From: a virus
Length of the DNA stretch: 24,576 nt
IMG/VR virus record: IMGVR_UViG_3300031708_000006
Coordinates: 1 to 24,576 of that record
Strand: one strand, 5' to 3'
Shown piece by piece: positions 2,358 to 19,068 of the stretch (its first letter is position 1; every line of letters begins with the position of its first letter). A program made the position numbers and the translations under genes. The notes below the pieces were generated by a model. The model worked only from the letters and a program-made list of their open reading frames with translations, did no database searches and was not told the origin of the DNA.

Positions 2358-2670
2358 CCAGTGCTTCGATCTCCTCCTGCATCGCCTGGTAGGCGTCGAT
2401 CGCCGCCTGCCACCGGTCGTACTGTTCCCGAGGGATGTCGAACACGCGCCGGGGGCTCTCGGATGATCCGGCGCGGTAGCCGCTGAACCCGGGACCGAGG
2501 TAGTAGTCGTCGTCCAGCACGACCCGCGCCATGCCGTCGGCCAGCGGGCCGGGAACGTAGCGCGGCTGCGGGGATACGGTGCCGGGCTTGCTCAGGGGCG
2601 TGAAGCGCGCGATGTCGCCGGGAGGTCCGGGCGGCTCAAGGTCATAGGCGACGATGCCGTTCTCGCTCAC
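2302..2670 (-). CDS. Third gene of minus-strand cassette, hypothetical, 122 aa
   Basis: The GTG start at 2670-2668 overlaps the TGA of the upstream gene (GTGA), so I choose it over longer in-frame extensions and expect translational coupling. The product is acidic, with a Pro/Gly-rich N-terminal half (VAYDLEPPGPPGDIARFTPL) and DDDYYLGPGFSGY in the middle. It ends in a helical segment, RRVFDIPREQYDRWQAAIDA, then AMQEEIEALV. This IPxExxDRW ... MQxEIexL ending recurs, as I recall, in small actinophage proteins of unknown function. It has no Cys and no membrane segment. The 3' end runs into the end of the convergent plus-strand gene. Confidence 0.65.
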   Translation of the reverse strand: MSENGIVAYDLEPPGPPGDIARFTPLSKPGTVSPQPRYVPGPLADGMARVVLDDDYYLGPGFSGYRAGSSESPRRVFDIPREQYDRWQAAIDAYQAMQEEIEALVSDRARNPLPVPSPGLPP

Positions 2671-2975
2671 CGCGGGCACCGGCAGGCGTTCATGACGTGA
2701 ACAGGCAGGCCGCCGCTGGTCCGGTAGCACGCGCCGGGCACCAGCGCGGCACCGGGTACGAGCAGCTCCGGGGCCTCGATCTGCATGCGCCCCATGATCC
2801 CTAGCCAGCAAGGATCGCATATGACCGCGAGTTCATCCGGGTCGCTGAGCTGGTCGGCCGGCAGCAGCGATTCGGCCTCGGCGAGCGCTTCCTCGTCACT
2901 CTGACCTTTGGTGAATGCGCCTCCGCAGCTGGCGCAGGTGTACGACTCTCCGGTGCCGCTCATGCGCTCCATCAT
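2667..2975 (-). CDS. Small zinc-ribbon protein, second gene of minus-strand cassette
   Basis: A 102-residue protein whose ATG overlaps the upstream stop (ATGA) and whose own stop overlaps the next start (GTGA). It carries two CxxC pairs, C14/C17 (YTCASCGGAFTKG) and C53/C56 (VICDPCW), separated by an acidic helix SDEEALAEAE, a likely zinc ribbon. I recall small actinophage proteins of the form CxxCGxxFxKGxSDEEAxxEA ... CDxCW, usually shorter. The ~45 residues after the second pair, with two further Cys near the end, are extra. A DNA- or protein-binding accessory role is an inference; there is no enzymatic motif. Confidence 0.7.
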   Translation of the reverse strand: MMERMSGTGESYTCASCGGAFTKGQSDEEALAEAESLLPADQLSDPDELAVICDPCWLGIMGRMQIEAPELLVPGAALVPGACYRTSGGLPVHVMNACRCPR

Positions 2976-3340
2976 CCCGTCTCGTTCTCGCTCATCCGGT
3001 CACCACCTCCAGTCCTGATCGGGGCATCCAGTGCCTCGCGGATCCGGTCCGCCACGAGGTCGTCCCGGCTGACGGTTACGGCTCCTGCTGCCTGCTCACG
3101 AAGGCGCATCACCTCTTGCACCCACTCCAGCAGCGGATGGGTTCCCAGGTGGGCCTGGCAGATCTCTTCAAGGGCAGCGAAGTGCTTCGCCAGGACGTCC
3201 GTGACTACCTCGTCAATGGTCGCCCCGAAGCCTTCTGGCAGTGGCCCGTCATGGTGCTGCCACGAGCACGTCGAGAGCGGGCAGTACGAGATGATCTTGG
3301 CCCCCGGCGGCCACTGATATTGCGCGAGTGATTCGCTCAT
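2972..3340 (-). CDS. First gene of minus-strand cassette, CPLxxC protein, 122 aa
   Basis: The ATG at 3340 has no Shine-Dalgarno but has TAGCAT exactly six bases upstream, so it is probably translated from a leaderless transcript. The N-terminus has a Cys pair, YCPLSTCSWQHHDGPLPEGF (C20, C25) with nearby His, then a helical middle (IDEVVTDVLAKHFAALEEIC, HPLLEWVQEVMRLREQ) and a charged end. The YCPLxC-W-H-D opening followed by HxxxH and EWV helices matches a family I have seen as a hypothetical protein in actinophages. Function is unknown. It heads a three-gene unit (3340 to 2302) in which every junction overlaps by four bases. Confidence 0.7.
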   Translation of the reverse strand: MSESLAQYQWPPGAKIISYCPLSTCSWQHHDGPLPEGFGATIDEVVTDVLAKHFAALEEICQAHLGTHPLLEWVQEVMRLREQAAGAVTVSRDDLVADRIREALDAPIRTGGGDRMSENETG

Positions 3341-3352
3341 CTGCTCATGCTA
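3341..3352 (-). promoter_or_regulatory. Leaderless -10 promoter of the three-gene minus cassette
   Basis: On the minus strand TAGCAT (3352-3347) is followed by GAGCAG and then the ATG at 3340. TANNNT six bases before the start codon is the usual arrangement for leaderless genes in actinobacteria. No convincing -35 is seen. The same layout precedes five other inserted genes here. Confidence 0.6.
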
Positions 3353-3361
3353 GGCGCGCGG

Positions 3362-3446
3362 GCGGCCGACTGGGAATCGAACCCGCGTACCCCTTGAGGC
3401 ACGACGCCTGGGGCGCCGCTGCTGACACCGGCATAGCTGCCGGCCA
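3362..3446 (-). other. tRNA-like sequence, possibly a degenerate type II tRNA
   Basis: On the minus strand an 85-base segment can be folded like a tRNA. The 7-bp acceptor stem is TGGCCGG with TCGGCCG (two G-T wobbles). The D-arm is GCT...AGC with GG in the loop. An anticodon-like stem has a 7-base loop CCCCAGG, followed by a 15-base variable region and a canonical T-loop region GGGTTCGATTCCC. Against a working tRNA, the T-stem has two mismatched outer pairs, position 33 is C rather than T, and two bases rather than one lie before the anticodon stem. I read it as a relic or mimic. It lies between the cassette promoter and the adaptor gene. Confidence 0.25.
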
Positions 3447-3480
3447 CCCGCGATCCGAAGAGTATGCCGGGAGGTCCGCG

Positions 3481-4410
3481 ATGCCTTCCGGCACCCCGTA
3501 CATCACCAGTTCGATCCTGCTCAACCAGCCAGCGGGATTGAGCTGGACGATCGTCCCGACTCTCACTGCGGACGCGGTCCAGCAGACAGCCCAGCTCGAC
3601 TACGTGTGCCAGCAGGTCACGTCCCTGGTCGACGGGTACCTGCAGCAGCCTTTGCGGGCGACGATCGTCACCGAGCAGAACCAGGGTCCGGGGATGCCGA
3701 GGGTGTCCGTCGACCCGCACACCGGGATCGCGGGCCTCGTCACCCGTCAGTCGCCTGTCACCGCGATCAACGCCATCCAGGTGTCGGAGGCCCGCTGCTT
3801 CCCGCCCAACTGGACGCTCATACCCCCCAGCCAGGCACGCATCCGTACACTGGTCCTCCAGCCGGCGTCGGGCGTGCCGGTGTACGGGTGCTCCGGCGGC
3901 AACGCGATCGACATCGCACCCGGCTACATCGACCGCCGTCACGGGCGCGGCCACTGGCTCGTGGCGGACTCCTATACGTCAGGGTGGGCGCACACCAGCC
4001 TCACCGCTGCCGCCAACGCCGGAGAAAACACCCTGGAAGTTGATGACGTCACCGGCTGGGCCGGCTGGACCGGTTTTCTCCTCGACGCGCAGGCCACCGA
4101 GGTCAGCTCTGTCGTTGACGTGTCCGCTACCACGCCGGTGATGCTTCCGGGACTGGGCTGCACCGTCCAGGCCGGACCCGGGACCGTCACGCTCTCTTCG
4201 GGGCTGGAAAACAACCACGCTGCGGGGGCAGTCTTCACCGCGGTGCCGCTCGGCGCGCTGCAAGCCGCCGCGCTCACCGCGGCGGTGATAGCGCTGGAGA
4301 CGATCGCGGCGATCGCCGTACAGTCCACCAGCGGGATGCTTCCCGGCGGCCTTGACGCCCTCGCTGCTGAATCGAAGTCGGAGCTCAACCCGTTCTGCAG
4401 GGTCATGTGA
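3481..4410 (+). CDS. Head-tail adaptor (connector) protein with inserted beta domain
   Basis: A 309-residue protein. I start it at the ATG at 3481 because GGGAGG lies at 3469-3474; the frame is open further upstream, but that part overlaps the tRNA-like sequence and the divergent gene. The N-terminal helical segment (TADAVQQTAQLDYVCQQVTS, LVDGYLQQPLRA) is typical of phage adaptors that bind below the portal. Residues ~165-260 (NAGENTLEVDDVTGWAGWTG through GTVTLSSGLENNHAAGAVF) form a beta-rich insertion. A helical Ala-rich C-terminus (LQAAALTAAVIALETIAAIA) resumes the adaptor fold and ends NPFCRVM. Its place just before the head-closure gene supports the call. Confidence 0.7.
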   Translation: MPSGTPYITSSILLNQPAGLSWTIVPTLTADAVQQTAQLDYVCQQVTSLVDGYLQQPLRATIVTEQNQGPGMPRVSVDPHTGIAGLVTRQSPVTAINAIQVSEARCFPPNWTLIPPSQARIRTLVLQPASGVPVYGCSGGNAIDIAPGYIDRRHGRGHWLVADSYTSGWAHTSLTAAANAGENTLEVDDVTGWAGWTGFLLDAQATEVSSVVDVSATTPVMLPGLGCTVQAGPGTVTLSSGLENNHAAGAVFTAVPLGALQAAALTAAVIALETIAAIAVQSTSGMLPGGLDALAAESKSELNPFCRVM

Positions 4411-4826
4411 TGGCGACCGCCAGGCCCTCATCGGGCGGCAGCGGCGGGATCGGGTCCGCGACCGCGCTGCGGTTCATGAACCACCGGATCACCATCCTGC
4501 GCGGCGAGGACGCCAGCGCGTACGGCGACATCAGCGACGTCGGCACACCCGTCTACGAGGACGTGCCCGCAGCAATCGCGGAAACATCGCAGACGGCGTT
4601 CGACCCGGCGACGCAGCGGCAGAGCATCATCCGGGCGATCAAATGCATCCTGCCGTCCTGGGCGGACGTGGAGACGACCGACACGATTTTTGACCCGTTC
4701 ACCGGGTTCTACTACATGATCGAAAACCTTGAACAGGAGCCAGGTCTGGGCTATTACCCGCCGCGGCAGATCCTGACGTTGCGGATGAGGTCCGGTGTCA
4801 CCGCAGCCGGGGAGTCGGGGCCATGA
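4407..4826 (+). CDS. Head closure (stopper) protein
   Basis: The product of 139 residues is encoded by a gene overlapping the adaptor stop; GTG at 4407 or ATG at 4410 (TGATG) are both possible starts. The domain RFMNHRITILRGEDASAYGD, followed by strands around VYEDVPAAIAETSQ, IIRAIKCILPSW and TIFDPFTGFYYMIENLEQEP, fits the small beta-barrel stopper proteins that seal the packaged head. The HRITILRG ... DxxGDxxD opening is typical, as I recall. A ~20-residue Gly/Ser-rich leader precedes it. The position between adaptor and the gp10-like gene agrees. It ends with ATGA overlapping the next small gene. Confidence 0.65.
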   Translation: MMATARPSSGGSGGIGSATALRFMNHRITILRGEDASAYGDISDVGTPVYEDVPAAIAETSQTAFDPATQRQSIIRAIKCILPSWADVETTDTIFDPFTGFYYMIENLEQEPGLGYYPPRQILTLRMRSGVTAAGESGP

Positions 4827-4990
4827 ACAGACTCGCCGACGCGACCGCCCGGCTCACCGTGGCGCAGGCGGAAAACACGGCCGCCCAGGCGTTCGAGGAC
4901 GCCGTGCATGAGTGCACGTTCTGCGAGCGCGGCGAGTGCGCGCGGTGCACCGACAGGCGCTGCACCTGCTGCTACGGGAACGAGGACTGA
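4823..4990 (+). CDS. Cysteine-rich 55-aa protein
   Basis: This very short gene is supported by both junctions: its ATG overlaps the previous stop (ATGA at 4823) and its TGA overlaps the next ATG (TGATG at 4988-4992). The N-terminal ~29 residues form an Ala-rich helix (TVAQAENTAAQAFEDAV). The C-terminal part CTFCERGECARCTDRRCTCC holds seven cysteines (31, 34, 39, 42, 47, 49, 50), enough for one or two metal sites or a disulphide knot. I do not recognise the family. It is co-translated with head-tail genes, so it could be a minor connector component or a metal-binding accessory protein. Confidence 0.65.
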   Translation: MNRLADATARLTVAQAENTAAQAFEDAVHECTFCERGECARCTDRRCTCCYGNED

Positions 4991-5475
4991 TGCCGAAAGA
5001 GGTCTTCAAGACCCGCGACGAGGACGGCGCCGACTTCGACGTCACCTGGTCCGGCGGATACTGCCAGATCGGCGCGACTGCCTACCTGGGTGCCCGGAAC
5101 TTCTGCGGCGGCGAGGACCGCCCGGCCAGCGAAATGATCGGCGTCAACGCCAAGCCGGATTTCTCGGCCGACGAGCTGGACCGGCTGATACTCACGCTCC
5201 AGCGGGCACGCCGCGAAGCGTTCGGGTCGAAGCTTCCGCTCGCGGTGACCATGGAAATCGTCGAGCGCGGGCGCAAGACCGACGGCACCACAGGCGGCAG
5301 CCTGATCGTCCCGACCGATGTCCGGATCAACGGCGTCTCGGTGCTCACCCAGGGTGGCATCAAGGTGCACGAGATGGACTTCCATCCGCTGAAGGAAATG
5401 GTGACGGTTACCGTCACGCTGCCTGTTCGGATGCTGACCGTGGGCGCGGAAGGCGACCTTCCGGCAGTCTCCTAA
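4990..5475 (+). CDS. Hypothetical protein in the connector region, 161 aa
   Basis: I do not recognise this protein. The ATG at 4990 overlaps the preceding stop (TGATG), so it is preferred over longer in-frame extensions. The N-terminal half has FDVTWSGGYCQIGATAYLG and a helix ADELDRLILTLQRARREAFG. The C-terminal half is beta-rich, with VPTDVRINGVSVLTQGGI and LKEMVTVTVTLPVRMLTVGA. The two halves may be separate small domains. Its stop TAA (5473-5475) interlocks with the TAG of the convergent zinc-ribbon gene. A virion role is inferred only from co-translation with the connector genes. Confidence 0.65.
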   Translation: MPKEVFKTRDEDGADFDVTWSGGYCQIGATAYLGARNFCGGEDRPASEMIGVNAKPDFSADELDRLILTLQRARREAFGSKLPLAVTMEIVERGRKTDGTTGGSLIVPTDVRINGVSVLTQGGIKVHEMDFHPLKEMVTVTVTLPVRMLTVGAEGDLPAVS

Positions 5476-5702
5476 GTCCCTCGCGCGGGCTCGATCGCCG
5501 CGAGCCGCTGAGCCCGGAACTCGGCCCTGGCCAGCGCGTCGGGGTCGTTGATCTCGCCGCGATCATCCGGGTTGCCCCACAGTTTCTCCCGGCATGACCG
5601 GCAGATCGGCAGCCGCCGGGCGACCCCGGGCTGCGTCTCCGCGGTGAGGAACTCGTCCTCCGGACGCCACCGCCAGCACGTCTTGCACTCCCGTGTCATC
5701 AC
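5472..5702 (-). CDS. Small zinc-ribbon protein on the minus strand
   Basis: This 76-residue gene is started at the GTG at 5702, directly followed by an ATG; the GTG is preferred because TACGTT lies exactly six bases before it and no Shine-Dalgarno is present. The protein has C6/C9 (ECKTCWRWRPEDEF) and C34/C37 (LPICRSCREKLWG). This C-x2-C ... P-x2-EF ... C-x2-C pattern is known from small zinc modules that often accompany endonuclease VII-type HNH proteins. Here it stands alone, with no nuclease residues. The remaining ~35 residues are a charged helix. It is inserted between the 161-aa gene and the gp10-like gene, with stops interlocked. Confidence 0.7.
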   Translation of the reverse strand: MMTRECKTCWRWRPEDEFLTAETQPGVARRLPICRSCREKLWGNPDDRGEINDPDALARAEFRAQRLAAIEPARGT

Positions 5703-5714
5703 GTCCCGAACGTA
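5703..5714 (-). promoter_or_regulatory. Leaderless -10 promoter of the zinc-ribbon gene
   Basis: On the minus strand TACGTT (5714-5709) is followed by CGGGAC and the GTG at 5702. It lies close to the plus-strand Shine-Dalgarno (around 5719-5725) of the gp10-like gene, so transcription in the two directions may interfere. Confidence 0.55.
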
Positions 5715-5730
5715 TCGCGAGGAGGCGGTT

Positions 5731-6237
5731 ATGGCCCGTGTCGTGATCGACCCCGACTGGCAAGAGCAGGTCATGGGCGAATGGGCGGCGTTCGCCGACG
5801 ACCGGCTCGGCGGCGACATCGCCGACGACGCCCGCCGCTACGCACCAGTCAGGACCGGCGCACTCAAAGCCTCCATTGAGCATCACCTTGAAGGCGACGA
5901 CTTGATCGTGTCCGCGTCCGGCGGCGGCGAAGACAGCAACGGGAACCTGTACGTCCTCCGGCGCCCGGGACGGCTCAGCGACGCGGCTGCGGGGCTGACG
6001 CACCCGAACCCGGGCCGGAACGTCGGATCGCTGACCACCCGCGAAGTGCATCACGTGGAGCTGGAAGCCGACCAGCTGCCTCATGAAAGCGCCGGCGACG
6101 AAGGCGGCCGCACCTACGCCGCTTTCGTGGAGTTGGGCCATAGGGTATTTCACCCATCCACCGGTGCAACAGGTCCAGAAGTAGTAGCACCTCGCCCATT
6201 TCTGCGCCCGGCGCTATTCCAGGAACGCGGCGAGTAA
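5731..6237 (+). CDS. HK97 gp10-like neck/tail-completion protein
   Basis: This 168-residue product starts at an ATG behind a strong GAGGAGG site (about 5719-5725). The segment IADDARRYAPVRTGALKASI is the hallmark of the HK97 gp10-like family (helix, then Y/AP-x-RTGxL). The end, AAFVELGHRVFHP then APRPFLRPALFQER, matches the family's usual C-terminus, in which the new neck or tail-completion protein packs against the connector. The middle contains a Gly/Asp-rich loop and a ~50-residue insertion (VLRRPGRLSDAAAGLTHPNP onward). The last 24 bases overlap the convergent minus-strand gene. Confidence 0.8.
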   Translation: MARVVIDPDWQEQVMGEWAAFADDRLGGDIADDARRYAPVRTGALKASIEHHLEGDDLIVSASGGGEDSNGNLYVLRRPGRLSDAAAGLTHPNPGRNVGSLTTREVHHVELEADQLPHESAGDEGGRTYAAFVELGHRVFHPSTGATGPEVVAPRPFLRPALFQERGE

Positions 6238-6639
6238 CCGGGGCGGCGCGGAGCGGTCGCGCTGCTTCTCGCGGACATACCGCTCAACCTCTTCGACGAG
6301 GGAGAACCCGCACAGGCGCGCGATCCTCGCGACCGGAAGCGCATCCTCGAACGTCCAGAATCCTGACCCGAAATCCATCGAGCCGGTTGCCAGGTCGTAG
6401 AGCGCCTGGACGCCTTCGGTCACGTCTGTCTGCGTGCCGTCATCGGCGATGTGGACGATGCGCCCGGTCACCGGGGAACCTTCGTCCGGCTCTCCGCGCT
6501 CGGAGAACGGCTTCCAGCGCCACACCGAACCGCAATCCGGGCACGTCCAGCCAGTCGCGGGAGCCGGAGGGTCCATCGCCGGCAGACGGCACAGATGGCG
6601 TGGTGCCTCAGTCGCATTCCATCCCGCGATGTCGCGCAT
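6214..6639 (-). CDS. Minus-strand zinc-ribbon-like protein, 141 aa
   Basis: The ATG at 6639 has no Shine-Dalgarno; TACCTT lies seven bases upstream, again a leaderless layout. The N-terminus carries H15/C17 (RHLCRLPAMDPPAP) and C33/C36 (GWTCPDCGSVWRWKP), a probable zinc ribbon of a type common among small actinophage proteins. The middle is acidic (VHIADDGTQTDVTEGVQALY) and may be a beta-helical mini-domain. The C-terminus is helical (ARLCGFSLVEEVERYVREKQ). Its role is unknown. The 3' end overlaps the gp10-like gene by 24 bases, so its last codons are antisense to that gene. Confidence 0.65.
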   Translation of the reverse strand: MRDIAGWNATEAPRHLCRLPAMDPPAPATGWTCPDCGSVWRWKPFSERGEPDEGSPVTGRIVHIADDGTQTDVTEGVQALYDLATGSMDFGSGFWTFEDALPVARIARLCGFSLVEEVERYVREKQRDRSAPPRLLAAFLE

Positions 6640-6652
6640 GGGTCCAAAGGTA
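6640..6652 (-). promoter_or_regulatory. Leaderless -10 promoter of the 141-aa minus gene
   Basis: On the minus strand TACCTT (6652-6647) is followed by seven bases (TGGACCC) and the ATG at 6639. No ribosome binding site or clear -35 is visible. Confidence 0.5.
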
Positions 6653-6698
6653 GCCGTGCCTCACCGTGAGCCGCACTACCTGAGACGGGGGGTGCGCT

Positions 6699-6809
6699 GT
6701 GCCTGACTGGCTAGCGGCCGTCATCGGCGCCGTCATGGGAGCCGGCGGCGTTCCCGCGCTGATCTGGGGTCTCGACCGGGCCGCTGACTGGCTTGCGAGG
6801 CGCACCTGA
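6699..6809 (+). CDS. 36-aa hydrophobic mini-protein
   Basis: This small ORF runs from GTG 6699 to a TGA that overlaps the ATG of the tail terminator gene (TGATG at 6807-6811). The upstream G-run (ACGGGGGG) could act as a weak ribosome binding site. The product VPDWLAAVIGAVMGAGGVPA followed by LIWGLDRAADWLARRT could form one membrane helix with a basic C-terminal end. Such short hydrophobic ORFs can serve merely to couple translation. No family is recognised. Confidence 0.45.
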   Translation: MPDWLAAVIGAVMGAGGVPALIWGLDRAADWLARRT

Positions 6810-7312
6810 TGACCACTCCCGCGACGATCCCGCTCGCCCCCGATGACGAGCTCGTGGCCGCTGCGTGGATCGCGTCTATCCCCGGTTTCACCGCGGCGAT
6901 GACCGGCCCGACTCTCCCGCCGGACATCACGCCGGACGGGGAACCAGCCCCGTGGATCTCCACCGGTTACGTAACCGTCGCCGTCGCCGGCGGCAACCCT
7001 GATGACCTGCTGCCCGTGCACCGGCCGGTGATCGACGTGCAGTGCTGGGCGACCGTCCCCGGATCGAACCGGCCGCCGTGGCAGATGGCGAAAGCCCTCG
7101 CGAACGCGATCACCAAAGCCACCTGGGACCGCACCACGCTCAACCGGGTCGTGACCCCCGTCGTCAACGGCGTCACCTACCCAACGGCCTCAGTGCAGGG
7201 CGCGAAGGTCCTCACCGCATTCCGGCGCTTGTACTCCGACACCGCGGACTACGCGTGCGTTCAGGGCGACCTGTGGCTGTCGTGGATCTGCCAGTCCGAC
7301 CAGATCACCTGA
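6809..7312 (+). CDS. Tail terminator protein
   Basis: A 167-residue protein starting at an ATG overlapping the preceding stop. Features fit tail terminators, the ring protein that caps the tail tube and joins it to the head. There is an N-terminal helix (DDELVAAAWIASIPGF), then WISTGYVTVAVAGG, the segment HRPVIDVQCWATVPGSNRPP with WQMAKALANAITKAT, and late strands with AFRRLYSDTADYACVQGDLW. The DVQCWA ... AxxLAxAI arrangement is the recognisable part. Position directly before the major tail protein region, after the gp10-like gene, is the normal place for this function. Confidence 0.7.
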   Translation: MTTPATIPLAPDDELVAAAWIASIPGFTAAMTGPTLPPDITPDGEPAPWISTGYVTVAVAGGNPDDLLPVHRPVIDVQCWATVPGSNRPPWQMAKALANAITKATWDRTTLNRVVTPVVNGVTYPTASVQGAKVLTAFRRLYSDTADYACVQGDLWLSWICQSDQIT

Positions 7313-7327
7313 CGAAAGGAACGGCTC

Positions 7328-7519
7328 ATGCCGCCACGCTCTGAACCGCCGCCCGGCACCGTCCCGGTGCGGCTCACCATCCGCCCCGGCGAGACCGCCT
7401 ACGTCCCCGAGGACGAGGTTCCGATCCTGCGCCAGCAGGGGCTGCTCGTCGAGGACGACCAGGCCCCCGCTGCGGGTGCCGAGATCAAGGCGCCTAAGGG
7501 TGCCGGTAAGGACGCCTGA
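7328..7519 (+). CDS. Small protein, 63 aa, function unknown
   Basis: It starts at ATG 7328 behind GAAAGGAA. The product has a Pro-rich N-terminus (MPPRSEPPPGTVPVRLTIRP), a short beta-like segment GETAYVPEDEVPILRQQGLL, and an Ala/Lys-rich tail. Its TGA overlaps the next ATG (TGATG). The xVPxxEVxxLxxQGLLxE pattern resembles short phage proteins that often lie near the tail genes, but I cannot name a function. Confidence 0.65.
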   Translation: MPPRSEPPPGTVPVRLTIRPGETAYVPEDEVPILRQQGLLVEDDQAPAAGAEIKAPKGAGKDA

Positions 7520-7875
7520 TGTCGACGGAGACCCTGACTCCCGCCCAGTTCGTGAAGAACGGCAGCGGCCTCAACATCACGCCTCTGCTCCAGGCCCCCA
7601 CTGGCGTCACGCTGGAGTTTTCGAACACGGGCCATGAGGTCCTGTTCGTCGTGACGTCGGCCTCGGCGGTGACGGTGCAGCTGGACATCGGCGCGACTGT
7701 CCTCGGGCAGGCGGTCACGAACCCGGCGGCGGTCACCCTCACCGAAAGCGACATGTACGCGTTCGGGCCGTACGACTCGCCGGCGGACCAGCCCGGCACG
7801 AACACCGTCGAAGTCACCTTGTCGACCATCACCGGGGTGACTGTCGCCCTGCTCCAGATGGTCGGCGCTGCCTGA
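7519..7875 (+). CDS. Beta-rich virion protein, possible decoration domain
   Basis: The ATG overlaps the previous stop at 7517-7519. The 118 residues alternate small polar and hydrophobic residues (LEFSNTGHEVLFVVTSASAV, VTVQLDIGATVLGQAV, TNTVEVTLSTITGVTVALLQ), fitting an all-beta fold of the kind found in phage decoration or tail-tube accessory domains. No Cys, no signal peptide and no membrane segment. An intrinsic terminator follows 23 bases downstream. The virion role is inferred from composition and from lying directly before the major tail protein. Confidence 0.65.
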   Translation: MSTETLTPAQFVKNGSGLNITPLLQAPTGVTLEFSNTGHEVLFVVTSASAVTVQLDIGATVLGQAVTNPAAVTLTESDMYAFGPYDSPADQPGTNTVEVTLSTITGVTVALLQMVGAA

Positions 7876-7898
7876 CCTGCACCTGCTCCGACTGACCG

Positions 7899-7922
7899 GC
7901 CCGCCAGCGCGCGGGCTTTTTT
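7899..7922 (+). terminator. Intrinsic terminator before the major tail gene
   Basis: GCCCGC (7899-7904) pairs with GCGGGC (7911-7916) around a 6-base loop, followed directly by six T. Positioned between the 118-aa gene and the major tail protein gene, it would partially separate head and tail transcription units. Confidence 0.75.
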
Positions 7923-7957
7923 CATGCCCGCGCAACCCCTGAAAGGCAGGGATCCCC

Positions 7958-8551
7958 TTGTCCGTCAACCCTCTTAACCTGGTGCTCGGCCCCGCCCGGC
8001 TGTACGTCGCCCCGTTCGGTTCGACTGAGCCGGCCGACTCGGCTGTCTCTCCCACTGGCTACCTGACGCCGCCTGGCGGCGCATGGGCGGATGTCGGCGG
8101 GACAGACGGCGGCATCACCTTCGAGGCGGACCCGACGTACACCGACCTGACGGTCGACCAGGTCATCATGAACGTCGGGGCCAGGTTGACCGAGGTGAAG
8201 ATGTCGGTGGCCGCGAAGCTGTCGGAGATGACGTTCGCCAACTTTCAGACGGCGATCAACAACATCGGCGTCACCAACGTCCAGTCGACGTATCAGACGC
8301 TGGAGATCCCGGTCCTGTCGTCCGCGACACAGCCGTCCTACCTGGCGCTGATCGTCGACGGGTGGGCGCCGATGACCAGCACGGGCGCTCCGGCGCTCCG
8401 CAGGATCATCGTCCGCAAGGTCCTCTCCCAGGTCAAGGCGAGCCTCGCATTCGACAAGAAGACCCAGGACAATCTCGACTGCACCTTCGAAGCTTTTTTT
8501 GTCAGTTCGACCATCAATCCTGTGCATGTGATCGATGAACTTTCGTTATAA
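7958..8551 (+). CDS. Major tail (tube) protein
   Basis: The likely start is TTG at 7958, with GAAAGG upstream, giving 197 residues. The sequence fits a tail-tube subunit: LNLVLGPARLYVAPFGS, then WADVGGTDGGITFEADPTYT, LTVDQVIMNVGARLTEVKMS and SVAAKLSEMTFANFQTAINN. In this family the GxxxGGI-x-F pattern followed by a D(Q)xxxxV segment is usual, as I recall. The subunit polymerises around the tape measure. The last ~20 codons are unusually AT-rich and the final sense codon is TTA (8546-8548), a codon rare in streptomycetes. The HNH gene begins only 32 bases after the stop. Confidence 0.8.
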   Translation: MSVNPLNLVLGPARLYVAPFGSTEPADSAVSPTGYLTPPGGAWADVGGTDGGITFEADPTYTDLTVDQVIMNVGARLTEVKMSVAAKLSEMTFANFQTAINNIGVTNVQSTYQTLEIPVLSSATQPSYLALIVDGWAPMTSTGAPALRRIIVRKVLSQVKASLAFDKKTQDNLDCTFEAFFVSSTINPVHVIDELSL

Positions 8552-8571
8552 GTTAGTAAATGCAATGGTGT

Positions 8572-8583
8572 TATAGTCGACGC
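8572..8583 (+). promoter_or_regulatory. Leaderless -10 promoter of the HNH gene
   Basis: TATAGT (8572-8577) is followed by CGACGC and ATG at 8584, within an AT-rich patch (about 8490-8577) that stands out from its surroundings. There is no Shine-Dalgarno. It is the only plus-strand member of the six leaderless promoters. Confidence 0.6.
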
Positions 8584-9162
8584 ATGGCGCGTCCCAAGAA
8601 CCCCGATTTCGAATACCTCCCCGACCGGCGCGGAATCCTCAAGGCGTACGTCTGGGTCACCTGTGAGACATGCGGCAACGCGGCACTCGTGCGAACAGAC
8701 GGTTCGCGCCGCTTCTGCTCCAAGAGCTGCGCTGCCGCCAAGCAGCACGTTCAAGGCAAGAGCCGTCAGGCGTCGGGCGATGAGCACTACGCGTGGAAGG
8801 GCTCCGAGGCCAAGTACCAGGCTCTCCATAACAGGGTGATGCGGGCGCGAGGCCGGGCCGGTCATTGCGAGCGTCGCGCTGAGGTCGGATGCAAGAGCCT
8901 GGCATACGAATGGGCCCACATCCATGACACCGATCCCGGTGATCCATCGAACTACGTTTCGCTCTGCAAAACGTGCCACCAGCGGTACGACAAGCAGACT
9001 GGCGCCGACCATGCCCGCGCGAAGCTGACAGCGGAGAACGCTGCCGAAATCCGTCATCGTTACGCTGCCGGCGGTATCAGCCAGCAGGCTCTCGCGGATG
9101 AGTTCCTAGTCGGGCAGACCGTAATCAGCAGGATCGTTCTCGGCAACGCATATCAACCCTGA
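8584..9162 (+). CDS. HNH homing-type endonuclease
   Basis: This 192-residue protein has a complete HNH layout. An N-terminal zinc finger (VTCETCGNAALV, C27/C30; FCSKSC, C45/C49) is followed by the nuclease core with C95 and C103, AHIHD (H112/H114), N123 in PSNYVSLCKTCHQRYDK, C128/C131 and H132. The C-terminal helix-turn-helix AENAAEIRHRYAAGGISQQA with QTVISRIV (about 147-188) is the DNA-binding end of many phage free-standing HNH endonucleases. Such genes spread by cutting alleles that lack them. Here it lies between the major tail gene and what looks like that gene's terminator. The start is ATG 8584, not the upstream TTG or GTG codons, because of the leaderless promoter. Confidence 0.9.
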   Translation: MARPKNPDFEYLPDRRGILKAYVWVTCETCGNAALVRTDGSRRFCSKSCAAAKQHVQGKSRQASGDEHYAWKGSEAKYQALHNRVMRARGRAGHCERRAEVGCKSLAYEWAHIHDTDPGDPSNYVSLCKTCHQRYDKQTGADHARAKLTAENAAEIRHRYAAGGISQQALADEFLVGQTVISRIVLGNAYQP

Positions 9163-9179
9163 ACGGTTCCCCTCCAGTA

Positions 9180-9208
9180 CCCGGCATCACTGTGGTGCCG
9201 GGTTTTTT
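9180..9208 (+). terminator. Intrinsic terminator after the HNH gene
   Basis: CCCGGCATCA (9180-9189) pairs with TGGTGCCGGG (9193-9202, one T-G wobble) around the 3-base loop CTG, followed by six T at 9203-9208. It probably belonged originally to the major tail gene before the HNH gene was inserted. Confidence 0.85.
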
Positions 9209-9228
9209 CATGCCCTTGAGAGGATGAA

Positions 9229-9648
9229 GTGGCAGCACAAGTGAAGGCAGGCCCGAAGGCTCGCCGTCCCCAACGGCCGCCCGTAGCGCCGCCAGAGCCT
9301 GAGCCTGAGCGTTCAGGGCCGCTGCATTTCGCCGCCCCGGACAAGGACGCTGAGCGGGTCGACGACGAGCGGGAAGCCCTGTTCTACGTCGGGAACGCCG
9401 AGTACACGATCCCCGTCGACCCAGGTCCCGGTATCGGGCTGGAAGCGCGCCACATCGTTGTCGCGGGCGGTCCGACGGGGGCCGCGCAGGCCGAGGACTT
9501 CGTGATGACGCGGATGCTCGGTGAGGACGGCTGGGCGGACATGCGGCGGTATGTCCTGGACAAGGTCATCGGCCGTGAGGATTTCGGCTACCTCATCAAG
9601 GTGGTCACTGAGAAGGCGATGGGGGCGCTGGAGGTCCCAAACTCCTGA
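9229..9648 (+). CDS. Tail assembly chaperone, short form (gpG-like)
   Basis: The start is GTG at 9229 with GAGAGGATGAA upstream. The 139-residue product opens with a Pro/Lys-rich leader and continues with DDEREALFYVGNAEYTIPVD and AQAEDFVMTRMLGEDGWADM, RYVLDKVIGREDFGYLIKVV. This is the usual helical architecture of the short chaperone that binds the tape measure during tail assembly. It ends ALEVPNS and overlaps, near its stop, the slippery site that yields the longer fusion form. Position directly before the tape measure gene confirms the assignment. Confidence 0.85.
   Translation: MAAQVKAGPKARRPQRPPVAPPEPEPERSGPLHFAAPDKDAERVDDEREALFYVGNAEYTIPVDPGPGIGLEARHIVVAGGPTGAAQAEDFVMTRMLGEDGWADMRRYVLDKVIGREDFGYLIKVVTEKAMGALEVPNS
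9636..9642 (+). promoter_or_regulatory. Programmed -1 frameshift slippery site
   Basis: The heptamer CCCAAAC sits in the X XXY YYZ phase of the chaperone frame (codons GTC CCA AAC), six bases before the stop at 9646-9648. After a -1 slip, the next codon is CTC at 9642-9644 and the frame stays open to 10064. This matches the conserved -1 frameshift in siphovirus tail chaperones. Confidence 0.85.
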
Positions 9649-10064
9649 CGCGCCGGCTGGCGCAACTGGCGTGGATCGACGAGCACCTGGCTGACGTCGA
9701 GTCGGACATGTCCGTGTTCCACCGGGTCGATGACATCTGGTCGATGCCCGCCGCTAAGTTCTTCGCGTTTGCGTGGCGGCTGCCGCACTACCGGGGCGTG
9801 ATGCGGGAACGGGTCCTGGCGGAGCAGCGCGACAGCAGTTCACGGCGCCCCCAGCAGCAACGACCCGCGACCCGCCAGGCATCTCCGGCACGGCAGGCTC
9901 CGCCGCCGGCGACACCCGCGGTGGTGCGGTCTGATCCGGTGCTGGGCGGCGTGTTCTCGTTCAGCTCATTCAGCTCCCCGAGCACAGATGACGCTCCCGG
10001 CGCAGACGACGCGCGGGCGGATCTCCGCGAGACGGCACAGCAGGAGTACCCGGAACTTCACTAA
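9642..10064 (+). CDS. Tail assembly chaperone, frameshift extension (gpT-like)
   Basis: This frame is read by -1 slippage from the short chaperone and adds 140 residues, giving a fusion of about 278 residues. The extension starts LLTRRLAQLAWIDEHLADVE and continues DMSVFHRVDDIWSMPAAKFF and AWRLPHYRGVMRER, which is the expected compact helical domain. A Gln/Pro/Ala-rich linker and an acidic end (DDAPGADDARADLRETAQQE) follow. There is no good start codon with ribosome binding site in the extension before the homologous region; the ATG at 9708 falls inside it. The join is therefore 9229-9642 plus 9642-10064. Confidence 0.85.
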   Translation, partial: LLTRRLAQLAWIDEHLADVESDMSVFHRVDDIWSMPAAKFFAFAWRLPHYRGVMRERVLAEQRDSSSRRPQQQRPATRQASPARQAPPPATPAVVRSDPVLGGVFSFSSFSSPSTDDAPGADDARADLRETAQQEYPELH

Positions 10065-10080
10065 ACGGGGGTGACACTCC

Positions 10081-14223: not shown

Positions 14224-14238
14224 GCGCGGGGGTGACCT

Positions 14239-15576
14239 GTGACTGAGACGCTCGGAACAGCCGGCTACCCCGTGACCCTCCTCATGAATTTCTGGGTCGG
14301 CGGGGCACTGACTGACCCGTCCGCGGTGCAGCTGGACATCACCTACGGCGCGGAACTGGGTTTCGCCCCGGACGTCGCGGGGCCGTTCACCTATTCGGGT
14401 GCGAGCAGCCCGGCCTACGGGCAGGTGTACCGGCTGGGAGCGGGCCTCTACGCGTTCACCTGGCAGATCCCGCAGTCTTCCCCCGCCGGGTCGTATGTCG
14501 CGAACTGGACCTGCACCTACGAGGGGTCGGAGTGGCTCGGCCCCGAGAACTTCTGGGTCAGCGGCGGGTATTCACCTGCTGTCCCCGCGGGGGATATCGG
14601 GTACTGGACCGGCGGGATCATCTATGGCGGCCTGGATATCGAGTTCGGGCAGGTCGACGCGAACGGCATCGCGTGGCTGTGGCAGAAGCTCACCGGCTGG
14701 GACGGTCCCGCGGTGCAGGGCGCCGGGGTCATCCCCAAATCCGGCGACCACGGGGCGTGGGCCAGTCCCCAGTATTACGCGGCCAGGACGCTTACCTGGA
14801 CTGTCACAGCGTCGGCGCCGACGCAGGCACTGAGAGACGTGGCGCGGGCGCTGCTCCAGCAAGCTGTTCCGGTGAGCGACCTGGCGACGCTCCGGTATGA
14901 CGAGCCGATCCCGAAGGTCGCCTACGTGCGGCGCTCAGGGCAGGTCACGGAGGCGTATCCGACGCTCGCGGACGTCACGTTCACTGTCGGCCTGGTCGCC
15001 CCGGACATGCGCAAATACGCTGCGGGCGGCAAGACCATCACGATCACCCCGATGCCGTCCGGCGGCGGCGGGGACATGGTGGTGCCGTTCACGGTCCCGT
15101 TCTCGCTCGCGGCCGCGCCGGCGCCGGGAAGCGCGATCGCGCAGAACCTCGGGAACTTCGAGTCACCTCCGGTGGCGGTCCTCTCAGGCCCTGTCGCCGG
15201 TCCGTCCCTGTCGAACCTGACCACGGGCGAAACCGTGTCGTGGCCGACGCTCACCCTCGATGCCGGGGATGTCGCGGTGATCGACTTCTCGACACGGCAG
15301 ACCTGGGTCAACCCGTCGGTCATCTCAACCACACCGGGGATGCCGTCTGGTACCGGGACGTACTGGTCCGCTGCTGTCGGCTCCGCCTGGTGGCAGCTCG
15401 CACCGGGGAACAACGCCATCCAGCTCGGCGGCGAAACCGGATCCGGGTGCAGCGCGATGCTCTACTTTGCCGATGCGTGGAGCTTAGGTCTCCGGCGTCC
15501 CGGTAGCCCGGATGCGCACCGGCTCCAGCGCGCGGTCTGGGTCGTGGAGGGCGATGTGGGCTGCCTGCCCGGGTGA
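14239..15576 (+). CDS. Distal tail (Dit-like) protein with N-terminal Ig-like domain
   Basis: The start is GTG 14239 behind GGGGGTGAC. Residues 1-112 form a beta domain (PVTLLMNFWVGGALTDPSAV, RLGAGLYAFTWQIPQSSPAG) of the kind fused to actinophage minor tail proteins. From ~125 a Dit-type domain begins: GGLDIEFGQVDANGIAWLWQ, KLTGWDGPAVQGAG and DHGAWASPQYYAARTLTWTV, then a helix and VAPDMRKYA. Dit forms the ring at the tail tip. The region ~290-414 is beta-rich and ends AMLYFADAWS (W414 S415), where Dit proteins normally stop. The final 30 codons, starting with a TTA codon, overlap the convergent DUF6221 gene and look acquired. The 3' end is therefore probably altered. Confidence 0.75.
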   Translation: MTETLGTAGYPVTLLMNFWVGGALTDPSAVQLDITYGAELGFAPDVAGPFTYSGASSPAYGQVYRLGAGLYAFTWQIPQSSPAGSYVANWTCTYEGSEWLGPENFWVSGGYSPAVPAGDIGYWTGGIIYGGLDIEFGQVDANGIAWLWQKLTGWDGPAVQGAGVIPKSGDHGAWASPQYYAARTLTWTVTASAPTQALRDVARALLQQAVPVSDLATLRYDEPIPKVAYVRRSGQVTEAYPTLADVTFTVGLVAPDMRKYAAGGKTITITPMPSGGGGDMVVPFTVPFSLAAAPAPGSAIAQNLGNFESPPVAVLSGPVAGPSLSNLTTGETVSWPTLTLDAGDVAVIDFSTRQTWVNPSVISTTPGMPSGTGTYWSAAVGSAWWQLAPGNNAIQLGGETGSGCSAMLYFADAWSLGLRRPGSPDAHRLQRAVWVVEGDVGCLPG

Positions 15577-15774
15577 CGGCGACGCAGCGTATGCGGCGGT
15601 GCCGCGGTTGAAGGTGACGACATCGCCGTTGCTCGTCCCGATGAGTCCGGGCTGCCGGACCGGGTCGGCTTCCTGCCAGCAGTAATCACCCGCGCAGCCG
15701 TCACCAGCTGCCTGAGCGGCCGCTTCGTCCTCTGCCAGGCGCGCCCTGATGAACGCGATCAGCGCCTCTTCCAT
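15484..15774 (-). CDS. DUF6221-like protein, truncated form
   Basis: The 96-residue product begins MEEALIAFIRARLAEDEAAA, the recognisable opening of the actinobacterial DUF6221 family (function unknown), and contains a CxxxYCW segment and GQAAHIALHDPDRALEPV, the family's AxHIAxHDPxRxL motif. Full-length members, as I recall, continue for 30-50 residues to a PYxDHPDYxExW-type end; here the gene stops soon after the HDP motif, so it is a short or truncated version. The ATG at 15774 has a leaderless promoter. It is convergent with the Dit gene and overlaps its last 93 bases. A second, damaged copy lies at 18646-19025. Confidence 0.75.
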   Translation of the reverse strand: MEEALIAFIRARLAEDEAAAQAAGDGCAGDYCWQEADPVRQPGLIGTSNGDVVTFNRGTAAYAASPSPGQAAHIALHDPDRALEPVRIRATGTPET

Positions 15775-15786
15775 CCCGCCAGCTTA
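15775..15786 (-). promoter_or_regulatory. Leaderless -10 promoter of DUF6221 copy 1
   Basis: On the minus strand TAAGCT (15786-15781) is followed by GGCGGG and ATG at 15774. The same sequence, with CTTC before and GGGATGGA after, precedes copy 2. The element borders and partly overlaps the plus-strand Shine-Dalgarno AGAAGGGGA (15786-15794). Confidence 0.65.
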
Positions 15787-15801
15787 GAAGGGGACATCCC
15801 T

Positions 15802-16884
15802 TTGGCCACCTCTCTCGCCATGTCACTCCCGTGGGCGCTCACGGGCTGCACCTATGACGCCGATGCGGGTAATGACTTGCGCAACAGCACTGTCACCGCG
15901 ATGTTCTATGACGAGGGCATCGTCACCGGGTCGGTGATCGGGGTCCTCGGCGGGGTGATCGGCGGCGCGGGGCTTGAGGTGTCGGCCGCTGGCGGGATGA
16001 CGGTGCACGTGCAGCCCGGCTCGATCGCGGTTGCCAACACCGCCTCGCCCGTCTCCGGCGGCTACACGGCGACACTCGCCCAGCAGGGCACCCTCACCGT
16101 CCAGACCGCCGACCCGTCCAACCCCCGCATCGACATCGTGTACGCCGGCGTCAACGACCTGGGCACGTCGTCGTCCAGCGGCGCGGTGCAGTACCTGGCC
16201 GGGACCGCCGCTTCATCCCCGGTCGCCCCGTCGGCCCCGGCGAACTCGATAATCCTCGCGCAGATCAGTGTTCCGGCGTCCACCACAACGATCACGACCG
16301 GGCTGATCACTGATGTGCGCCCGTTCACGACCACCACGGGCGGCATCCTGGTAGCCGCTCCGGGCACGGTGACCGGCTACGAGGGCATGGGCGCCTTCGA
16401 CGTGGGCAACGGCCGGTTCTACCACAACAGCAACGAGACCGGTGACACGCAGTTCAAGGTCCTTCCGTGGCCGCCCCAGTATTCGACGCTGGCCGCCGAC
16501 ACCAACCTCGCGTCCTCCAGCGCCGGCACCCTGCTCAGTAGCGGAATCGTGTGCGACGGCTACACCGACATCAAGATAACCACCCACATCGTCGGCATCT
16601 ACCAGTCGTCCCCGTCGACAGCGCAGGCGATTTTCTCAACCTGGATCGACGGCACGCAACTCGACGAAATCGACCTGATGACCAGCTCAGGCGACAACGC
16701 GGGCATCAGCCACCTGGGTTACACGAACACGTACAGCACCGGTTCCGCGTCCGGGGACACGCCGTCAGCCGGGTCGCACACCGTCTACTGGAAGGCTCAG
16801 GGGGTAGGCGGCGGTCACACGATCACGATCCGCGCCAGCGCCACCCGCAACGCCTACCTGCGTGTCGAACCGGTTGTCCTGTAG
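15802..16884 (+). CDS. Minor tail protein, tail-tip or baseplate component
   Basis: I start this at TTG 15802, eight bases after AGAAGGGGA; an ATG lies 18 bases further in. The 360-residue product has an N-terminal module (SLPWALTGCTYDADAGNDLR, VTGSVIGVLGGVIGGAGLEV, GGMTVHVQPGSIAVANTASP, NPRIDIVYAGVNDLG) as seen in proteins that dock onto siphovirus tail tips. A linker (PVAPSAPANSIILAQISVPA) leads to a C-terminal beta-sandwich (~225-360, ITTHIVGIYQSSPSTAQAIF, HTVYWKAQGVGGGHTITIRA). The C-terminal domain could contact the host surface. The ORF stop is immediately followed by the next ATG. Confidence 0.7.
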   Translation: MATSLAMSLPWALTGCTYDADAGNDLRNSTVTAMFYDEGIVTGSVIGVLGGVIGGAGLEVSAAGGMTVHVQPGSIAVANTASPVSGGYTATLAQQGTLTVQTADPSNPRIDIVYAGVNDLGTSSSSGAVQYLAGTAASSPVAPSAPANSIILAQISVPASTTTITTGLITDVRPFTTTTGGILVAAPGTVTGYEGMGAFDVGNGRFYHNSNETGDTQFKVLPWPPQYSTLAADTNLASSSAGTLLSSGIVCDGYTDIKITTHIVGIYQSSPSTAQAIFSTWIDGTQLDEIDLMTSSGDNAGISHLGYTNTYSTGSASGDTPSAGSHTVYWKAQGVGGGHTITIRASATRNAYLRVEPVVL

Positions 16885-18084
16885 ATGGCCGTCTGGACGT
16901 ACTGCTCAACAGACCTCCTGACCGGCGCGGTCCTGTGTGATGACCTGCCGCTGAATGTCCAGTCGATGTCGGCGAACCTCAACGGCTCAGGGACCCTCAC
17001 CGCGTCGCTGAACCTCGACGAGGTGTATGCGGTCAACGCCCCGTTCGTCGCGGCGCTCCTGCCGCGCCGCAGCGTGCTGTGGGCGCTCGCGGACGGCTTC
17101 CCGGTGTGGGCCGGGATCGTGTGGGACTGGCCGGACATGACCCGGGCGCAGGGCACCCTGTCGATCTCCGCGCAGACCATGGATTCCTTGTGGTCGCACC
17201 GGCTGATCACCGACACCCTCGAATACGGCGAAGTCGATCTCTTCACCGCGTTCCTGGATTTGATCACCTACGGGACGAACAAGCAGTCCTCCTATATCGA
17301 AACTGGTGTCAGCCCCGAGGAAACCCGAGACCCTGCCTACCTGGCGATGTTCGCCACCCAGGGCAGAGCCGCCCGGCTCACCCTCCCCACCGGTCTCACC
17401 TCCGGTGTGTCCTGGACCGCGTCCTACACCTATTCGGACCTGACCCAGGTGTCCTCGGCCTGGTCCGACATGGCTGCCAGCGGGAACCTCGAGTACGCGT
17501 TCACTCCCGGTTTCGACTCCGCCGGGCAGCTGACCGTATTCGTGAAACTCGGCTACACGGCGCTCGGCCGGGCACAGGCCGACTCCGGGATTTCACTCAG
17601 CTACCCCGGGAACCTGCTGGACTACGGGTGGACGGTAACCGGCAGCCAGTCCAGCAACATGGTGTTCGGCACCGCACCCCCCAACGGGTCAGAGCTGACC
17701 TGGGAATCCTTCTACCCGAACGGCGCCGACCTGACCGACCTGGCGTCGTTCCCGGTCCTCGAATCCACCGTGTCGTGGGAAGGCTCGTACGTCACATCCC
17801 AGGCGCAAGTCAACTCATTCGCCCAGGGCCAGGTGGCGATGCTGACCGCGGGCATGACAACCCCGGTCGTCAACGTCGGCGGCGGGAGCTACCCGAAGCT
17901 TGCCGATCTTCAGCTCGGCGACAGCGTGCTGCTCGCGCTCACCTCCCCGCTGCATCCCCCGGCCGCGAACGGTTCGCCGGGATATCAGGGCGAGCAGCGG
18001 ATCACCGGCTGGACTTGCTATCCCCCGGGCCCGCAGCAATCCGAGTACTACCAATTGAACCTCAGCGGGGTGGTGGCGTCGTGA
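16885..18084 (+). CDS. Minor tail protein, hub / tail-associated (Tal-like)
   Basis: The ATG directly follows the previous stop with no separate ribosome binding site, implying coupled translation. The 399-residue protein opens WTYCSTDLLTGAVLCDDLPL and proceeds through beta-rich segments (LNGSGTLTASLNLDEVYAVN, RRSVLWALADGFPVWAGIVW, GTLSISAQTMDSLWSHRLIT). The VWAGIVW segment followed by LSISAQTxxS is a known trait of siphovirus tail hub proteins that lie below Dit. The rest is consistent with the T4 gp27-like ring fold of such hubs. It ends in a small beta domain (YPKLADLQLGDSVLL, GEQRITGWTCYPPG). It overlaps the next gene (GTGA). Confidence 0.75.
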   Translation: MAVWTYCSTDLLTGAVLCDDLPLNVQSMSANLNGSGTLTASLNLDEVYAVNAPFVAALLPRRSVLWALADGFPVWAGIVWDWPDMTRAQGTLSISAQTMDSLWSHRLITDTLEYGEVDLFTAFLDLITYGTNKQSSYIETGVSPEETRDPAYLAMFATQGRAARLTLPTGLTSGVSWTASYTYSDLTQVSSAWSDMAASGNLEYAFTPGFDSAGQLTVFVKLGYTALGRAQADSGISLSYPGNLLDYGWTVTGSQSSNMVFGTAPPNGSELTWESFYPNGADLTDLASFPVLESTVSWEGSYVTSQAQVNSFAQGQVAMLTAGMTTPVVNVGGGSYPKLADLQLGDSVLLALTSPLHPPAANGSPGYQGEQRITGWTCYPPGPQQSEYYQLNLSGVVAS

Positions 18085-18386
18085 CGACCTACCCGCGTCC
18101 GCTGCTCCAGCGGTTCCAGGCCACGCTGCAGAAACTCCAGCAGGACGTCGCCAAGCTCAAGACCCGCACCGCCGGGATCGACTCGGGGTTCCCGCTGATG
18201 GTCCTCCCTGGAGTGATCTCCGGCTCGTACACCAGCGGCAACCCTCAGGTGTACATCAACGGGTCACCGACCCTCAGCGGGCCGTTCCCGTACCTCGCGT
18301 CCTACACGCCGGCAGCGAATGACACGGTCATCCTTGCACCGGTCGGGGCGCTGCAAAGTTACATTGTGATAGGCAAGTACGAGTGA
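18081..18386 (+). CDS. Small minor tail protein, coiled coil plus beta domain, 101 aa
   Basis: GTG at 18081 overlaps the hub gene stop (GTGA at 18081-18084); this fixes the start although the frame is open much further upstream. A short coiled coil (LQRFQATLQKLQQDVAKLKT) leads into a beta domain: DSGFPLMVLPGVISG, NPQVYINGSPTLSGPFPYLA and NDTVILAPVGALQSYIVIGK. The pattern of a coiled coil, PQVxINGSxTLSGPxPYL and PxxGDTVxLxPVG is common for short tail-tip proteins of actinophages, as I recall. It is likely a trimeric or hexameric adaptor for the fibre. Its end marks the left border of the second minus-strand insertion. Confidence 0.75.
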   Translation: MTTYPRPLLQRFQATLQKLQQDVAKLKTRTAGIDSGFPLMVLPGVISGSYTSGNPQVYINGSPTLSGPFPYLASYTPAANDTVILAPVGALQSYIVIGKYE

Positions 18387-18397
18387 CCGGCGCTTGG

Positions 18398-18435
18398 CTG
18401 GCGCAGGCCCCGGCCTTCAGGCCGGGGATAGCCAG
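18398..18435. terminator. Two-part palindromic hairpin, likely bidirectional terminator
   Basis: CCCCGGCC (18408-18415) and GGCCGGGG (18420-18427) enclose the loop TTCA, and an outer CTGGC/GCCAG pair (18398-18402, 18431-18435) extends it across an internal loop. It lies between the plus-strand stop at 18386 and the minus-strand stop at 18440, which suggests a terminator for both. There is no T-run. Confidence 0.55.
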
Positions 18436-18439
18436 TGCC

Positions 18440-18649
18440 CTAACCCGCGTGGTGTTCGGCCAGGAGATCGGCGTGACGCGGGCAGACCCCGACGCGGACC
18501 GCCCCGCCATGGACCGGGACGAAGAAGTACAGCGGGCCTGGTCCCTGGTCTTCAGGGCAGCCGAGCACGACGCCCGGGTCGTTTATCCCGAGTTCGGCGA
18601 TCTGCTCATCGGTGGGCGTCTCGTAGTACTGGCACAGGGGTTGAATCAC
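18440..18649 (-). CDS. Hypothetical 69-aa protein coupled to DUF6221 copy 2
   Basis: The GTG at 18649 overlaps the TGA that ends the restored DUF6221 frame (GTGA at 18649-18646), so this is the second gene of the cassette. It is acidic with three spaced cysteines (C6, C31, C56): PLCQYYETPTDEQIAELGIN, VVLGCPEDQGPGPLYFFVPV and VRVGVCPRHADLLAEHH. The CPxH ending after a beta-like middle hints at metal binding. No family is recognised. The stop lies just before the palindromic hairpin at 18398-18435. Confidence 0.65.
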   Translation of the reverse strand: MIQPLCQYYETPTDEQIAELGINDPGVVLGCPEDQGPGPLYFFVPVHGGAVRVGVCPRHADLLAEHHAG

Positions 18650-19025
18650 GGCTTCAGTTCCTCCGGGTAATCCGGGTGGCCGCTCCAAGCTGCACCGAGT
18701 TCCGCGAGGAGCTGCCGGGCCAGGAGCGCACGCGGCGAGACGAGGGCATTGGGGGTACTCGTCCATCTCGTTGGCCCACCTCGTGCAGCGCCGCACGATC
18801 GCCCGGGTCGTACACGACGCTCGCCGACGCCGGCGCGGGAAGCTCATGCCCGTCAGCACACCAGGGTTGGTCATCGTCACCTGCCGCCACGGTGGTGTAG
18901 AGCATCTGACCCTGGTCGTCGAGGTAAGTGAGCCATGCGACCTTCGCCGGGCCGGAAAAGTGAGCCGGGGCCTCTTTCTCAGCTAGCCGGGCCTCGAAGA
19001 ACGCGATCACTGCCGCCATGTCCAT
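18646..19025 (-). pseudogene. DUF6221-like gene, copy 2, frameshifted
   Basis: The ATG at 19025 opens MAAVIAFFEARLAEKEAPAH, like copy 1, and includes a VVYDPGDRAALHEV segment, a worn form of the family's HDPxRxL motif. The first frame then loses similarity and stops at 18654. The family's usual C-terminus is found in the -1 frame, LLARQLLAELGAAWSGHPDY then PEELKP, ending at 18646 with a TGA that overlaps the next gene's GTG. A -1 shift is needed, most simply at the C5 run near 18750 (GTACCCCCAATG on the minus strand). A single-base deletion or assembly error is likeliest; programmed slippage is less likely. Copy 1 lacks this C-terminal part. Confidence 0.6.
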
Positions 19026-19037
19026 CCCGTCAGCTTA
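19026..19037 (-). promoter_or_regulatory. Leaderless -10 promoter of DUF6221 copy 2
   Basis: On the minus strand TAAGCT (19037-19032) is followed by GACGGG and ATG at 19025, nearly identical to copy 1 (TAAGCT then GGCGGG). It abuts the plus-strand AGAAGGA, which would be the Shine-Dalgarno of the fibre gene. Confidence 0.65.
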
Positions 19038-19068
19038 GAAGGACAGGTGAGCGGTCATCGCAGCGAAC

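Follow-up and report, generated by a model that had tools for sequence, protein, structure and literature searches.

How can a gene lodged within the late operon of a temperate phage be transcribed when that operon is off? The question is raised by a stretch of viral DNA of 24,576 nucleotides (positions 1 to 24,576 of IMG/VR record IMGVR_UViG_3300031708_000006; hereafter, the window), which is a late region read from the plus strand, encoding the capsid protein, the tape measure and proteins of the neck and tail. In this region, six genes or short operons begin with a start codon preceded, 6 or 7 nucleotides upstream, by the hexamer TANNNT, and five of the six lead genes are oriented against the late genes, the exception being 8584+ (genes are designated here by the first base of the start codon and the strand). 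We propose, with a probability of roughly 0.78, that they are moron-like cassettes with leaderless promoters that would be read by a sigma factor of the host.

The sites have the form TANNNT(6-7)[AG]TG, where the number in parentheses is that of the nucleotides between hexamer and start codon. On the minus strand are TAGCAT(6)ATG at 3340- (hexamer at 3347-3352), TACGTT(6)GTG at 5702- (5709-5714), TACCTT(7)ATG at 6639- (6647-6652), and TAAGCT(6)ATG at both 15774- (15781-15786) and 19025- (19032-19037); the plus-strand site is TATAGT(6)ATG at 8584+ (8572-8577). Hexamers, spacings and start codons are exactly those given in a preliminary description of the window. The last base of the hexamer lies 7 to 8 nucleotides before the start codon at all six sites, and inspection of the upstream sequences found no Shine-Dalgarno (SD) site before any of the six starts, both of which are expected of leaderless promoters. 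When TANNNT at spacings of 5 to 8 was sought before the first four starts of the 133 open reading frames (ORFs) of at least 60 amino acids, exactly these six genes were returned. The "six of six" of the preliminary description applies to the gene that opens each inserted unit; the downstream minus-strand genes 2975-, ~2679- and ~18649- have no motif, and they overlap or abut their upstream neighbors.

Over all 1401 ATG and GTG codons of the window, the background is ~0.0014 per spacing. The chance of a site was estimated for each gene by shuffling the 60 bases upstream of every possible start, which gave 0.01 for 3340-, 0.024 for 5702-, 0.0094 for 6639-, 0.107 for 8584+, 0.005 for 15774- and 0.037 for 19025-; the product for the six is 4.5e-11. 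With 15774- and 19025- counted once, being diverged copies of each other, the number of independent cases drops to about five and the product becomes ~1e-8. On either count the set is hard to reach by chance, as had been claimed. The weakest cases are 5702-, where two other starts of the ORF precede the GTG and an ATG comes immediately after it, and 8584+, whose surroundings are AT-rich and contain a second candidate, TAAGTT(5)ATG at 8560.

The preliminary description had proposed a motif scan across related actinophages, and held that an equal frequency of the motif before structural genes would speak against it. Scans with the capsid protein gave 88 loci, 75 of them non-redundant, in which genes were called by codon usage, blind to the motif. 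Of 397 genes classed as rare or intermediate, 22 have TANNNT at 6 to 7 nucleotides, versus 4 of 739 recurrent ones (Fisher 2e-7, 75 loci), so the frequencies are clearly unequal. Three of the four recurrent motif genes are members of one HNH_3 family of endonucleases, the remaining one being an alternative start further upstream. Sixteen of the 22 rare ones lie on contigs outside both the window and its closest long relative, G2. The enrichment is confined to spacings 6 and 7, all others being at background. It is repeated in the phiC31 lineage (24 loci), with the motif at 5 of 33 rare versus 2 of 308 recurrent genes, both of the latter being serine integrases by sequence; the opposite-strand genes of that lineage have none (0/6). 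Among the same-strand inner genes of the 75 loci, 9 of 806 have the motif, and at least five of the nine are endonuclease-like. In S. prunicolor NBRC 13075 (locus L025), which carries a related prophage, an inserted endonuclease gene starts with TAGCCT(6)GTG. In Arthrobacter phage Mufasa8 the corresponding tail slot is occupied by a reverse gene, gp20, with TAATTT(6)ATG; its counterpart in Sonali is SD-led. As for a -35 element, 10 of 33 sites match at least four of the five bases of TGACC, versus 11% at random control places (three mis-placed rows, L273 twice and L284, are excluded).

The contrast between rare and recurrent genes is robust, but it is of a known kind. In Streptomyces coelicolor, 80.4% of starts have TANNNT as their -10, with a weaker -35, NTGACC, and 21% of primary transcripts are leaderless (PMC4895711); an in silico survey of Actinobacteria linked leaderless genes to a TANNNT lying ~12 bp upstream of the start (PMC3160421). 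The sites of the window share this placement with those leaderless genes, which make up ~20% of genes there. The latter, however, are host genes, whereas here the arrangement is found only at inserted and regulatory phage genes and at almost no recurrent virion gene. Cluster O mycobacteriophages have a predicted leaderless promoter before a reverse gene inside the structural operon (PMC4351075). This gene, Corndog 53 with its promoter PL2, resembles our units in running leftward in a rightward structural operon, with predicted SigA recognition and +1 on the first base of the start codon; it is one predicted case in another phage group, while the window has six units, mostly with a -10 only, and statistics across two lineages. 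Leaderless translation has also been suggested for hidden HNH genes (PMC11855218). STMMW_20121 of ST64B (PMC7067206) is, like the units of the window, antisense to lytic genes, outside the recurrent virion set and provided with its own promoter; it is enterobacterial and its transcription has been measured, while the promoters described here are fused to the start codon and known from sequence. What is added here is how strong and general the rare/recurrent contrast proves to be, together with the evidence tying it to the genomic setting.

Since hexamer and start distance match the -10 geometry of S. coelicolor and the sites are conserved, the part of the preliminary description that invoked own promoters, the host vegetative sigma factor and leaderless mRNA is well supported. 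Each unit would be an accessory insertion among the late genes of a temperate phage, with its own -10 TANNNT read by a vegetative sigma factor of the HrdB/SigA type and a -35 that is weak or absent. Transcription would start on or beside the first base of the ATG or GTG, giving a leaderless mRNA, and such a promoter could fit into the few bases available beside a neighboring structural gene. As no late activator would be needed, the genes could be transcribed with the late operon off, in lysogeny or early in infection; once the operon is on, five of the six units would oppose late read-through. The exact transcription start, the sigma factor, the leaderless translation and the timing are all predictions from the DNA.

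Morons, extra phage genes with a switch of their own, have long been known. Like them, the genes in the 8584+, 5702- and 6639- slots are absent or replaced between conserved genes in G2; the other mark of a moron, the promoter of its own, is indicated here by sequence, conservation and enrichment. G2 (68.8 kb) has late genes syntenic with those of the window and encodes a tyrosine integrase. The capsid protein of the window matches those of the Arthrobacter phages Mufasa8 and Sonali, and relatives with 65-69% identity are found in Streptomyces, Kitasatospora and Catenulispora genomes. One of these sits within an 11.6-Mb contig, so that one at least is an integrated prophage. The best explanation is that the window comes from a temperate soil phage of Streptomyces-type hosts. 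That the six genes are expressed in the lysogen, with the late operon silent, is plausible, given the prophage relatives, the antisense placement typical of accessory loci and the annotation of phiC31 gene 32 as "transcribed in lysogens". It is also in line with the helix-turn-helix (HTH) gene that immediately precedes the G2 integrase and has a leaderless-type start, TACGGT(6)GTG. Gene 32 resembles our units in lying in reverse orientation among the late genes of a Streptomyces phage; unlike them, it has no TANNNT at 6-7, and its leader is purine-rich and SD-like. It was therefore rejected as an annotated-in-lysogen control for leaderlessness; it backs moron behavior.

The two DUF6221 genes deserve a closer look. 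Gene 15774- (15484-15774) matches DUF6221 (PF19730) with E 1.3e-11 and 45.7 bits, against a curated cut-off of 27.6. Its hexamer adjoins the SD-like AGAAGGGG of a divergent tail gene, and only 27 bp separate its start from the start codon of that gene; gaps this tight may favor leaderless promoters. Gene 19025- (18654-19025) is a diverged DUF6221-like gene; PF19730 does not match it, the likeness being confined to the N-terminus. It is conserved as 34877- in G2, with TAAGCT(6)ATG, and is followed in the window by a second gene (18440-18649, minus strand) with an SD-like start and no TANNNT. The promoter-plus-start segments of the pair are 74% identical over 82 nucleotides. The diverged copies (15713-15791 and 18961-19042, ~3.2 kb apart) include the 5' end of the DUF6221 gene, its promoter and also the divergent structural gene's SD-like site, so that a promoter and its start can be copied together. 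No mention of DUF6221 was found in the literature searched.

Does the promoter then simply belong to gene families such as DUF6221 and HNH, and travel with them? The shared segment of 15774- and 19025- would favor this, as would four related Endonuclease_7 genes, all of which have TANNNT at spacing 6 (TATAAT, TATGCT, TAGCCT and TATGAT). Yet of 63 DUF6221 genes in Streptomycetaceae genomes none has the motif and 47 have an SD-like site; of 68 in other viral contigs, one has the motif and 46 have an SD-like site. Most members of a 12-locus HNH family also lack the motif. Inheritance of the promoter with the DUF6221 family is thereby rejected, the leaderless start belonging to the gene as placed in this late operon rather than to the family, and for families in general we find the idea unlikely. 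A phage-encoded or alternative sigma factor might read TANNNT instead: phiC31 and Kromp are annotated as encoding sigma-like proteins, and the -35 boxes are weak at these sites. The predominance of TANNNT among S. coelicolor -10s argues otherwise, as does the occurrence of one motif in two unrelated phage lineages, and no sigma gene was seen in the window; we consider this somewhat less likely still. Finally, chance, in the sense of short A/T-containing hexamers picked from many candidates near starts, could draw on 8584+ and 5702-, but it is hardly credible, since enrichment and spacing peak recur in independent contigs and homologs keep the site, with different hexamers at the same place. 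Base composition fares no better: shuffles and spacing control rule both out.

The most serious contender accepts the promoters as real and leaderless and assigns them to expression in the lytic cycle, either early or constitutive; homing endonucleases and proteins directed against the host would be examples. Endonucleases, which would benefit during co-infection, account for many of the motif genes in relatives, and a vegetative-sigma promoter would also fire right after infection. On the other hand, the relatives are prophages with an integrase, a like promoter stands before the HTH regulator beside it, and lytic and lysogenic uses are not mutually exclusive. We therefore rate an exclusively lytic role as possible, at somewhat less than even odds.

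Several observations weigh against the proposal of host-read leaderless cassettes. The motif is not universal among inserted genes: in the relatives it precedes 11 of 39 genes leading against the late operon, about a quarter, and the DUF6221 gene in the 15774- slot of G2 has no TANNNT. A consensus scan found no full sigma-70 consensus site in the window, where ATGACC upstream of 19025- fits the S. coelicolor -35 but with a spacing of 15 nucleotides, 15774- matches four of five bases, and the -35 is weak or absent elsewhere. In addition, the starts in the relatives come from a home-made gene caller.

It is tempting to suggest, tentatively, that the mode of initiation of an actinophage gene indicates where it belongs in the life cycle. 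Those for the virion would essentially never be leaderless, and newcomers to the late operon would time and again acquire a minimal leaderless promoter on the spot, ~12 bp upstream of the start, making SD-led families such as DUF6221 independent of late control. For the present sites, both an origin in place and acquisition with neighboring DNA would fit. If the suggestion is right, TANNNT 6-7 bases before a start would be a cheap, sequence-only flag for accessory or lysogeny genes in actinophage genomes and metagenomes, genes otherwise hard to tell from virion genes. It would also give a simple account of how an inserted gene works at once, since a few bases suffice and no late activator is needed.

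The remaining units can be described briefly. The lead gene of the 3340- unit (2972-3340, minus strand) encodes 122 residues and is followed by overlapping, motif-free minus-strand genes at 2975-2667 and ~2679-2302 (2302-2975 together). Both homologs found keep the hexamer, as TAGCAT(7)ATG at 17091- in G2 and TAGCAT(6)ATG in contig L244. Directly upstream of the promoter, all three have a tRNA-like stretch (T-arm and 3' half of the acceptor), at 3362-3447 (minus strand) in the window, ~17110-17170 (minus strand) in G2/L017 and before 3001 in L244. A tRNA gene was rejected here: ARAGORN returned none, and the Rfam tRNA-Sec match (27.4 bits) is below the gathering score of 47. The window copy has a cloverleaf-like fold (z -2.6), while the G2 copy folds no better than shuffles.

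Gene 5702- (5472-5702, minus strand) overlaps a plus-strand ORF and encodes a zinc-ribbon-like protein of 76 residues (CxxC...CxxC). This protein is weakly similar to the zinc ribbon found N-terminally in the inserted Endonuclease_7 genes (E 0.013, pairwise), and on that value a truncated relative of them was rejected. Gene 6639- (6214-6639, minus strand) encodes 141 residues with a CxxC motif; its C-terminal relatives, in L008 and L009, are encoded by genes without TANNNT. G2 has other genes in both slots, that of 6639- being occupied by 20954-, with TACGAT(6)GTG.

Gene 8584+ (8584-9162), inserted between tail genes, is a zinc-finger/HNH/HTH homing-endonuclease-like gene with weak Pfam matches (zf-FCS_1, HNH and HTH_3, all under the gathering score). 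It is missing at the homologous place in G2, which has 239 bp against 822 in the window. Just 3' of it lies an intrinsic terminator (9179-9203, plus strand; an 11-bp stem, then a T run); none was found just 3' of the minus-strand units. A second terminator-like hairpin with a T run, at 7898-7917 (plus strand), precedes the gene for the major tail protein within the late operon and is kept in G2 at ~22079-22103.

Two further observations concern the relatives. Contig L106 has divergent leaderless-type promoters with good -35 boxes, TTGACA and TTTACA, before genes at 2081-2296 (minus strand) and 2326-2679 (plus strand); one of the genes is HTH-like, and the pair resembles a regulatory switch. 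L019 encodes, at 8770-9774 on the minus strand (G2 46770-47774), a lone Cas1-like protein (PF01867, E 2e-16) with glycosyltransferase genes nearby.

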